A DNA stretch of 64,000 nucleotides, from the NCBI GenBank assembly GCA_021324795.1, contig JAJPIK010000087.1, forward strand, positions 1 through 64,000, in the 5' to 3' direction. The DNA is from Chloroflexota bacterium. GTDB lineage: Bacteria; Chloroflexota; UBA6077; FW602-bin22; CADDYW01. Position 1 is the first letter of the stretch, and every line of letters starts with the position of its first letter. Of the stretch, positions 287 to 4,923 are shown piece by piece. The translations under genes and the position numbers were made by a program. The notes below the pieces were generated by a model. The model searched no databases. It had not been told where the DNA came from and saw nothing but the letters and a program-made list of their open reading frames with translations.

Positions 287-297
287 GGAGGAGAATG

Positions 298-819
298 ATG
301 AGCACGAGTCATGAGCCCGTCATTATTTATACGACTCCTACCTGACCATGGTGTCATCGAGCGAAGGAGTTCCTTCGCCAGCGTGGCGTGCCGGTCGTTG
401 AGCGCGACGTTTCGGTCGATCAGAGCGCGGCCCAGGAAATGGTGCGTCGCAGTGGCCAGATGGGCGTGCCGGTGATCACGGCGGGGTCGGAAGTCGTTGT
501 GGGCTTCGATCGACCGCGTCTCGAGCAGATTGCCGCGCGTTATGCTCATGCCAGCGCCACGCCGTCGTCCGGTCCAAAGCTCGGGCTCGCGGTCCGGAGC
601 TCGGTGGGCGGTGGGGTTGAGATTGGCAAAGTTCGGCCGGGTTCGCCCGGTGCGCAGGCAGGATTCCAAGTCGGTGACGTTCTCGAAAGCTTGGGCGGGC
701 AACCGGTGAATTCGAGCGACGACATCGAGCGGTTGACCCGGGCAATGCAGCCGGGGCAGATGATCGACGCGGCAGTCCGTCGGGATGGCCGTCGTCTTCA
801 TCTCACGCTGACGATCTAG
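298..819 (+). CDS. Putative selenocysteine glutaredoxin fused to a PDZ domain
   Basis: Read through one TGA, this gives 173 aa. Residues 1-80 are a glutaredoxin fold: strand VIIYTTPT, then [TGA]PWCHRAKEFL at residue 16, the cis-proline motif GVPVI near residue 59, then VVGFDRPRLEQ. The TGA (343-345) replaces the first Cys of the usual CPWC. Residues about 95-173 are a PDZ domain (KLGLAV, GSPGAQAGFQVGDVL). Expected role: dithiol/selenothiol redox of protein or glutathione targets, with PDZ binding to a peptide tail. Start ATG 298 is chosen from GGAGGAG at 287-293; ATG 295 is also possible. It is the first gene of the dnaJ-hspR-clpB cluster, 46 bases before dnaJ. Seen: same-frame continuity of the fold across the stop, and a hairpin just after it. 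Inferred: Sec insertion. The alternative is a Cys-to-stop mutation or sequencing error; a separate PDZ gene starting at GTG 388 would lack half the glutaredoxin fold. Confidence 0.75.
346..386 (+). promoter_or_regulatory. Candidate bacterial SECIS element
   Basis: Directly after TGA 343-345, bases 361-378 form a perfect 7-bp stem (GCGAAGG with CCTTCGC) capped by the tetraloop AGTT. A weaker lower stem can pair CCATG 346-350 with CGTGG 382-386, including one G-U. Known bacterial SECIS elements have the loop roughly 16-37 bases after the UGA and a G in the first two loop positions. Here 22 bases separate UGA and loop and the second loop base is G, so both rules are met. It would recruit SelB with Sec-tRNA. 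No sel gene lies in the window. Confidence 0.65.
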
Positions 820-2319: not shown

Positions 2320-4923
2320 ATGAACCTCAATAAACTTACCGAGAAAGCCCAAGAGGCAATTCTAGCTGCCCAGCGGCTGGCCGAGGAGGCTCGCCATACC
2401 CAGCTAGAGCCGGAACATCTTTTGGCGGCGCTGATCGAGCAGCAGGGTGGCGTCGTACCAGCCGTGCTCGACAAGCTTGGCGTATCGAGCCGAGCACTGC
2501 TTCAGCAAGTCCAGAACGCATTGCAAGGCCTGGCGCGGGCGTCGAGCCCGACTCAGGTTTACGTTTCCCCACGTTTCAAAACGGTGTTTGACAACGCCCA
2601 GAGCGAGGCCGAGCGGCTGAAGGATGAATACGTTTCGACCGAGCACTTCTTGCTCGCCTTGGCCGACGACGCCGAGAAGGGGCAGGCTGGCCAGATTCTC
2701 CGGCGAGCGGGGGTAACCCGCGACCGGATCTACCAGGCATTGCAAGAGGTGCGCGGTGGCCAACGGGTGACCAGCCAATCGCCGGAAAGCACCTACCAGG
2801 CCTTGGAAAAGTACGGCCGTGACCTGACCATGCTGGCCCGACAGGGCAAGCTGGACCCGGTAATCGGGCGTGATGAAGAGGTCCGGCGGGTTATCCAGGT
2901 GCTCTCGCGTCGCACTAAGAATAATCCAGTGCTGATTGGCGAGCCGGGCGTTGGCAAAACGGCGATCGTCGAAGGATTGGCCCAGCGCATCGTCCGCGGC
3001 GATGTACCGGAAGGCTTGAAGGATCGCCGGATTGTCGCTTTGGACCTGGGGGCCATGGTCGCTGGCTCGAAGTACCGTGGCGAGTTCGAAGAGCGGCTGA
3101 AGGCGGTGCTCAAGGAAGTGCAAGAGAGCCAGGGCCAGATTATTCTCTTCATCGACGAGCTACATACCGTTGTTGGCGCGGGTGCCGCGGAAGGGGCAAT
3201 GGACGCGTCAAACATGCTCAAGCCACTGCTCGCCCGGGGTGAGCTACACGCGATCGGCGCGACGACGCTCGACGAGTACCGCAAGCACATCGAGAAAGAC
3301 GCCGCGCTCGAGCGACGCTTCCAACCGGTCTTCGTCGGCGAGCCATCGGTCGAAGATACGATTAGCATTTTGCGTGGCCTGCGCGAGCGCTATGAACAGC
3401 ACCATAAGGTCCGGATCAAAGATGCTGCGCTCGTCGCCGCGGCCGTGCTCTCGCATCGCTACATCTCTGACCGCTTCCTGCCTGACAAGGCGATCGACCT
3501 GGTCGACGAGGCGGCCTCGAAGCTACGCATGGAAGCGACAAGTCTACCGGCCGAGCTTGACGAGGTACGGCGCCGGATCATGCAGCTCGAGATCGAGCGT
3601 GAAGGACTGCGCAAGGAGAAGGACGAAGCATCGAGGGAACGGTTGGCGAAGCTCGAGGCTGAGCTTGCTAATCTGAAAGAAGAGAGCGATCAGCTTGAAG
3701 CGCGCTGGAAGAACGAGCTGAGCCAGCTCAATCAGGTTAGTCAGCTTCAAGAAAGGATTGACGCGGCCCGGACCGAGATGGAGCAGGCTTCGCTGCGAAC
3801 CGATTGGGAACGGGCGGCCCGGCTGAAGTACGAGATCGCCCAGCTCGAGCAGCAGCTCGCCGCGTCCGAACAGGCGCTACGCGAGCGTTCCCAGCACGGC
3901 CGAACTCTGGTGAAAGAAGAAGTCGACGAGCAGGATATTGCTGAGGTGGTCAGCAAGTGGACTGGCATTCCCGTCAGCAAGCTGGTCGAAGGCGAGATTG
4001 AAAAGCTGATTCACATGGAAGAGCGGCTGCGCGAGCGGGTGGTTGGCCAAGACGACGCGATCAGCGCAGTTGCCAACGCGGTGCGGGCGGCGCGGGCTGG
4101 CCTCCAGGATCCAAACCGTCCGCTGGGCTCGTTTCTCTTCCTGGGGCCAACCGGTGTTGGGAAAACCGAAACGGCACGGGCGCTGGCCGAGTTCCTGTTC
4201 GACGACGAGCAGGCGCTGGTTCGGATTGACATGAGCGAGTACCAGGAGAAGCATACTGTCTCCCGCTTGATCGGGGCTCCCCCTGGCTACGTTGGCTACG
4301 AGGAAGCGGGCCAGCTCACCGAGGCAGTCCGGCGTCGGCCCTACAGCGTGGTCTTGTTCGACGAGGTTGAGAAGGCTCATCCGGAAGTCTTGAACGTTCT
4401 GCTCCAGTTGCTCGACGACGGCCGCCTCACCGATGCCCAGGGGCGCACCGTCGACTTCAAGAACACGATCGTGATCATGACGTCAAACCTGGGTAGCCAA
4501 TGGATTACCGAGCGGGGACTGAGTTGGGACGAGATTCGGGCGCGAGTGATGGAAGCGGTACGTCAGCACTTCCGACCCGAGCTGCTGAACCGGATCGATG
4601 AGATCGTCATCTTCCATCCGCTCGGCTTGGAGCAGATCGGCCAGATCGTCGAGATTCAGCTCGGAGCGCTGCGCAAGCGGCTTGCCGAGCGGAAGATCTC
4701 GCTCGAACTGACACCGGCCGCGCGTGACTTCCTGGCCCGTGAAGGCTTCGACCCGATCTATGGCGCGCGCCCGCTGAAGCGAACGATCCAAAAAGAGATC
4801 GTTCAGCCGCTCGCGATGCGTCTGCTTCAGGGTGACTTCCGCGACGGCGACACGATTGTCCTTGACGTCGGCGACGGGCGGATCGTATTCCGTCCTGCCG
4901 AGCGGCCGGTCGCAATGACGTAG
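2320..4923 (+). CDS. clpB: ClpB disaggregase (Hsp104/Hsp100)
   Basis: 867 aa, the normal ClpB length. In order: Clp N-domain (1-145), AAA+ D1 with Walker [11 protein letters not shown] near 200 and Walker [10 protein letters not shown], a coiled-coil middle domain (about 405-525, Glu/Arg/Leu rich) that marks ClpB rather than ClpA/ClpC, then AAA+ D2 with Walker [10 protein letters not shown], pore loop GYVGYEE and sensor 2 region YGARPLKR. It resolubilises aggregated proteins with DnaK/DnaJ in the cytosol. Start ATG 2320 is fixed by AAGGAGGGG at 2308-2316; a GTG 21 bases upstream also lies in frame. It is last in the stress operon, 128 bases after hspR; that gap has no clear promoter. Confidence 0.97.

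Follow-up and report, generated by a model that had tools for sequence, protein, structure and literature searches.

A predicted selenocysteine-containing glutaredoxin-PDZ fusion protein in Chloroflexota

Our in silico analysis indicates that the gene at positions 298-819 of the window (the whole stretch of DNA analysed, 64,000 nucleotides from a Chloroflexota genome) is a selenoprotein gene, whose predicted product joins a glutaredoxin with selenocysteine (Sec) at the attacking residue to a PDZ domain. Selenocysteine glutaredoxins are already known, and on the evidence of sequence the glutaredoxin-PDZ combination with Sec is a well-supported new architecture. We consider it highly probable that SelB and a downstream hairpin drive Sec insertion at UGA 343-345; the product would act as a PDZ-steered thiol-disulphide oxidoreductase.

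The gene forms a single frame of 173 codons from ATG 298, just preceded by a second ATG at 295, to TAG 819. As the initial annotation had claimed, the frame is intact save for one TGA (codon 16, 343-345), which falls on the first residue of TPT[U]PWC, the attacking position of a CPWC/CxxC-type active site. With this TGA read as Sec, the frame yields a protein of 173 residues carrying Sec at residue 16. The features that we assign to the gene are collected in Table 1.

Table 1. Features assigned to the glutaredoxin-PDZ gene (window coordinates)
Feature	Positions	Strand	Basis
Putative Shine-Dalgarno-like GGAGGAG	287..293	+	Read from the sequence; upstream of ATG 298
Predicted selenoprotein gene, glutaredoxin-PDZ fusion	298..819	+	Translation, Pfam, relatives
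Glutaredoxin domain (YruB / Uxx-star type), residues 8-67	319..498	+	PF00462, NCBIfam scores
UGA codon for predicted selenocysteine, first residue of UPWC	343..345	+	TGA in 31/39, Cys in 8/39 relatives with intact motif
Longer fold around the upper stem (lower stem, internal loops)	344..396	+	RNA fold; predicted
TGT codon, resolving Cys19 of UxxC	352..354	+	Invariant in the 19-row alignment of class relatives
bSECIS-type upper stem-loop	361..378	+	Stem 361-367/372-378 (GCGAAGG/CCTTCGC), loop AGTT 368-371
PDZ domain, DegP/DegQ (HtrA PDZ1) type, residues 93-172	574..813	+	PF13180, profile, fold search

Both domains were recognised well above the Pfam cut-offs. With Sec read as Cys, Glutaredoxin (PF00462) scored 69.4 bits against a cut-off of 22.9 (E 3.1e-19), and PDZ_2 (PF13180) scored 46.9 bits against 27 (E 3.4e-12). 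We considered the best 25 of the 33 NCBIfam models that match the protein, and among these Uxx_star (NF041212) alone passes its cut-off, barely (66.4 bits vs 66, residues 8-71), and covers the redox domain alone; TIGR02196 (GlrX_YruB) reached 82.1 bits, below its cut-off of 88.55. In the PDZ part, a profile built from the 19-row class alignment matches DegP/DegQ chains, and in a fold search the top ranks went to MucD, DegS and DegQ, whose TM-scores to the whole model were 0.41-0.42. The AlphaFold model (mean pLDDT 83.6) is good inside the domains and unsure in the arrangement between them (pTM 0.47; 3 sequences).

The active-site codon alternates between TGA and Cys among relatives, as had been expected from the start. 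We surveyed the 29 genomes of the class and a sample of 400 genomes of the phylum, class included. A full-length relative was found in 19 of the 29 class genomes, with TGA at this residue in 16 and Cys in three. The phylum sample gave 39 full-length genes with an intact UxxC or CxxC motif, one counted per genome, 31 with TGA and eight with Cys; the phylum holds at least these relatives, at most eight first-look candidates having been scored per genome. This count leaves aside a second gene copy in one genome (G287b), ten rows of family f19, and matches to the glutaredoxin or to the PDZ domain only. Each of the 31 TGA copies contains that stop alone and no other disruption, and seven of them come from single-contig assemblies. 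Eight of the pairs that we compared contain a TGA copy, and in every one of them dS is greater than dN downstream of the UGA, in the glutaredoxin part as in the PDZ part. Thus the relatives are not disrupted elsewhere, in agreement with the initial annotation.

Sec and Cys rows are intermingled on the tree, which requires seven state changes, and the Cys rows cluster no more tightly than shuffled labels do (as low in 184 of 500). In one instance a Cys copy (G005) and a Sec copy (G004) of the same family are sisters, with support of 100/99. The direction of the changes is not polarisable on this tree; on sequence grounds, Cys tips scattered among Sec branches would fit repeated exchange of Sec for Cys.

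Some relatives depart from this pattern. Ten genomes, all of family f19 (L108-L117), carry glutaredoxin-PDZ proteins that kept both domains and lost the active-site pair (DPxC/DPxS), suggesting that the clade may have retained a non-redox role; in one pair from this group (G309-G169), too, dS exceeds dN. The second copy in G287 (L107, G287b) is a Cys form with an in-frame TAG between the domains and an ATG a few codons later; it could be either a split gene or a copy in decay. One scan reaching beyond the phylum sample returned 20 loci, two of which (L050 and L051, both Chloroflexi) cover both domains, while two archaeal records (L052, L053) hold the redox domain alone, with Cys.

The hairpin that the initial annotation had described 15 bases after the TGA is indeed present. 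In the window gene, positions 343-400 fold at -24.5 kcal/mol (z -2.80), and 4 of 200 shuffles folded as well. The G and U of the loop are invariant in all 31 TGA copies, and the stem occurs there in four variants, GCGAAGG/CCTTCGC, GCGAAAG/CTTTCGC, GTGAAAG/CTTTCAC and GCGAGAG/CTCTCGC, the first of which is offset by one base of register from the other three. We scored pairing over a stem of 7 bp in the best of four registers per sequence, against a null of 2000 synonymous resamplings drawn from each gene's own codons. The TGA copies form 211 of 217 possible pairs, whereas the resamplings average 155.8 (sd 4.15) and never exceed 172; all seven pairs are present in 25 of the 31 copies and six in the remaining ones. 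The Cys copies, instead, form 36 of 56 pairs against 35.5 in the null, and none has six or more. The strength of this test owes to the free choice among four registers, a freedom that was given to the null likewise. Single genes are mostly only suggestive (p 0.044 for the window gene; 0.41, 0.22, 0.17 and 0.16 for G029, G041, G011 and G010), and it is the sum over genes that is decisive.

With the register fixed, 86.2% of the cells are paired; this count, that of cells with change on both sides, and the covariation score are each higher than in any of 500 shuffles. On the other hand, two-sided change is seen in two of the seven pairs, which 75 of 500 shuffles equalled, the variety of pair types does not surpass that of shuffles, and a register slid by +2 gives a nearly equal covariation score (0.155 vs 0.159). 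Folding energies are in line with the pairing test. Windows of 42 nt starting from two codons before to six codons after the UGA have mean z-scores of -1.1 to -2.0 against synonymous shuffles, those starting seven codons after it rise to +0.65, and no later window mean (62 positions) goes beyond -0.76; the Cys copies range from -0.5 to +0.3 at the same nine places and reach down to -0.87 elsewhere. The available part of PMC13188914 gives four rules for bacterial SECIS elements (bSECIS). The window gene agrees with them (loop AGTT, 22 nt, -15.4 kcal/mol), as do 27 of the 31 TGA copies on all four rules, the other four missing the energy limit only, and one of the eight Cys copies, with stems counted whole. 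Judged by these comparisons, the hairpin is conserved with the TGA copies and not with the Cys copies, far beyond chance.

The genome encodes the machinery for Sec, and the search for it that had been proposed at the outset returned all four genes. selB lies on contig C9 (352 bits, cut-off 242.25), selA on C86 (565.7 bits, cut-off 267.9) and the tRNA-Sec gene selC on C49 (72.9, cut-off 47; anticodon TCA according to ARAGORN). selD, on C7 (386.6 bits, cut-off 125), has an in-frame TGA of its own in SHGAG[U]ACK, a known selenoprotein site. The assembly measures 4.87 Mb in 124 contigs, is 93.68% complete and 5.99% contaminated, and the window covers the opening 64 kb of contig C44. Since the sel genes lie on other contigs, any single one of them might be contamination.

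Class-wide, 25 of the 29 genomes gave a selB match at E up to 1e-60, and 23 gave one to tRNA-Sec at E up to 1e-8, for which 100 first-look candidates per genome were scored. At the same threshold, selB was found in 27 of the 31 TGA genomes; the four without a match are 57, 66, 82 and 88% complete, with a tRNA-Sec in the 88% one. Neither selB nor tRNA-Sec was matched in the 82% complete genome (G006), which has a TGA copy, and tRNA-Sec, searched for in the class only, was not matched in 3 of its 16 TGA genomes. All eight genomes with a Cys copy also hold selB, and therefore the Cys forms do not stem solely from loss of the machinery. As far as gene content tells, some relatives make do with Cys even though they could use Sec.

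Further UGA-containing genes came to light along the way. We built a covariance model from the 31 hairpins and ran it on the whole genome, scoring the best 150 of 2044 first-look candidates; among those scored, it recovered the window gene (E 1.8e-11) and two other loci (E 0.0015 and 0.0028). One (L148, G000:C81:26942-27002, + strand) is a second putative Sec glutaredoxin or NrdH-like gene with the motif HERUSAC, in which TGA is the first residue of UxxC; it precedes the aligned start by 5 bases and a GTGAAAG hairpin by 15. This match is partly expected by homology because the model includes primary sequence; G002 has a comparable short protein (L047) with Cys at that place. The other (L149, G000:C7:293932-293997, - strand) is an ArsC/Spx-like frame with RTUTAC, again with TGA first in UxxC, whose match begins at the TGA and which reaches neither the curated cut-offs of the ArsC/Spx models nor that of NF041106. 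Four short glutaredoxin-like frames in other genomes (L044, L045, L046 and L048, in G011, G012, G009 and G011) have a TGA in GUxFC, GUAPC or TUPYC, and all of them show a hairpin at roughly this position.

Other readings of the TGA have to be weighed against Sec insertion. The gene lies near the end of a draft-assembly contig, which starts at window position 1, and TGA is one base away from TGC or TGT, so that a nonsense mutation in a decayed gene, or a sequencing or assembly error, might be imagined. Such an accident would hardly put TGA at exactly the same residue in 31 of 39 relatives, seven of them single-contig genomes, nor would it account for a hairpin with 211 of 217 pairs in TGA copies only, for dS above dN after the UGA, or for a frame with no further lesion; we regard it as exceedingly improbable. 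Equally small is the probability that we give to a reassigned code, with UGA meaning Trp or another residue, or to mere read-through of a leaky stop. UGA followed by C can be a leaky context, and C follows the UGA in all 31 copies, but this C is forced anyway by the Pro codon. Moreover, the alternative to TGA among the 39 relatives is Cys and never Trp, the genome holds tRNA-Sec and SelB, the adjoining dnaJ frame terminates at TGA, and the SECIS-type hairpin is conserved.

Two further alternatives accept the selenoprotein and differ in what is made of it. When selenium is low, translation may stop at the UGA or restart downstream, for example at GTG 388, where an open frame of 143 residues begins, and thereby yield a PDZ fragment without active site, so that the UGA, besides coding for Sec, would sense selenium. 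That an inactive glutaredoxin-PDZ protein can persist is illustrated by the ten PDZ-bearing relatives without the active-site Cys pair. Nevertheless, the codons between the UGA and 388 are conserved as protein in the 19-row class alignment, which places the full-length product under selection, and a two-product switch appears quite improbable to us. A role of the PDZ domain in oligomerisation or in partnership with a membrane protease, rather than in the choice of redox substrates, has more in its favour, and we see it as possible, though on the unlikely side. The domain is of the DegP/DegQ PDZ1 and site-2-protease type, and PDZ domains of this type also serve assembly and regulation; against a fixed partnership, no adjoining partner gene is conserved, the largest cluster of neighbouring ORFs (90 residues or more) extending to 6 of 39 genomes.

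The initial annotation had also placed the gene in a heat-shock operon, which is true of the window and not of the family. Downstream lie DnaJ (866-1819), whose frame ends in TGA, a MerR-type regulator (1826-2191) and ClpB (2320-4923). We compared 38 other neighbourhoods of about 3-6 kb a side, some of them shorter at contig ends. ClpB occurs about 0.26 kb past the gene in G001 and DnaJ just before it in G337, and neither was matched in the other 36 at E up to 1e-8. No HAIR-like site was found in the window at up to 3 mismatches. With DnaJ and ClpB each in one of 38 neighbourhoods and no HAIR-like site, we reject a heat-shock neighbourhood as a general feature. Promoter- and terminator-like matches within 1-2400 are few and all on the opposite strand, and no Rfam family passes its gathering threshold in the window.

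The contig start itself bears a strong hairpin at 7-64 with outer arms of 13 bp (1-75 folds at -32.1 kcal/mol, z -4.66). The first 107 bases of the window are identical to the start of another contig, C112, so the assembly probably broke here at a repeat.

Assuming that the gene encodes a selenoprotein, the following course may be proposed. SelB would bind the hairpin and deliver Sec-tRNA-Sec at UGA 343-345, and the ribosome would continue to TAG 819. In the product, Sec16 would attack a disulphide or a sulphenic acid of the substrate and Cys19 would then resolve the selenenylsulphide, while the HtrA-type PDZ domain may hold C-terminal or exposed peptides of particular substrates beside the active site. 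The reducing power would likely be supplied by a thioredoxin-reductase-like system, or by a low-mass thiol other than glutathione. As an indirect sign, the ATP-binding domain of glutathione synthetase (PF02955) was not matched in the window genome at E up to 1e-5, and one of the 29 class genomes has it; for this reason we infer that the UxxC reductase is probably independent of glutathione. Hence the name glutaredoxin, under which the gene had been annotated, is right by family (PF00462), whereas the use of glutathione that it implies is doubtful.

A link to protein quality control is hinted at by the adjoining DnaJ and ClpB. Taken further, one may picture a phylum-wide, selenium-dependent and glutathione-independent reductase that, by means of its HtrA-like PDZ domain, forms the redox counterpart of the Deg proteases, recognising misfolded or exposed C-terminal peptides and reducing wrong disulphides or oxidised cysteines together with DnaJ and ClpB. 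We put this forward tentatively, as an idea that is rather unlikely to hold in full.

Our findings would add to the selenoproteins an architecture with Sec at the attacking residue that is present in genomes across one phylum. They offer a clean comparison of Sec and Cys forms, in which the SECIS hairpin is present or absent together with the UGA, and they point to a selenium-dependent thiol enzyme in bacteria seemingly without glutathione synthetase, with the PDZ fusion suggesting a reductase aimed at chosen proteins. Where UGA is taken for a stop, a gene caller would truncate the gene or place its start further on, for example at 388, and so lose the active site; such proteins are therefore likely to be missed or misannotated.

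The literature that we found agrees with the earlier remark that the PDZ fusion is poorly described. The accessible portions of two reviews (PMC13188914, PMC9312934) catalogue a Sec glutaredoxin (UxxC) and a Thioredoxin_7/PDZ selenoprotein (CxxU), with NF041199 in the later one; these portions mention PDZ a single time each, and a glutaredoxin-PDZ selenoprotein was not found in them. From the available excerpts of older work, data of 2006 comprised three Chloroflexi selenoproteins and three Sec glutaredoxins (PMC1794560), and ten Sec glutaredoxins were reported from the Sargasso Sea, with no PDZ mentioned in the excerpt (PMC1088965). For Dehalogenimonas alkenigignens, the accessible text of PMC4918011 describes sel genes, with SelD and formate dehydrogenase as selenoproteins, and in that text glutaredoxin is not mentioned. 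Our literature searches, which covered openly accessible papers and included Chloroflexi and Dehalococcoidia, found no report of a glutaredoxin-PDZ selenoprotein fusion among the papers listed; a prior description of it may exist.

Several known systems share parts of this design. HtrA/Deg proteases (DegP, DegQ, DegS, MucD) have a PDZ1 domain that is alike by sequence profile and fold search, attached to a protease domain, whereas the window protein is without one and has its PDZ behind a redox domain. The family NF041199 (Trx7/PDZ) also consists of selenoproteins that join a thioredoxin-like domain to a PDZ, but its redox part is a Thioredoxin_7 domain with a CxxU motif, as far as the available descriptions go, compared with a glutaredoxin and UxxC here; the window protein matches this model in the PDZ part only, at 33.2 bits against a cut-off of 300. 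The Sec glutaredoxin (Grx, PF00462) in the accessible portion of PMC13188914 has UxxC in the Grx fold like the window protein; those described there are small glutathione-using enzymes, whereas ours is PDZ-fused and belongs to a genome with no matched glutathione synthetase domain. The redox domain is the same as in Uxx-star (NF041212, with TIGR02196, GlrX_YruB), a family named as (seleno)proteins, and each of the 19 class relatives hits this family at E up to 0.01. Its model spans 70 positions, the redox domain only, and the window protein adds to this a PDZ domain of about 80 residues behind.
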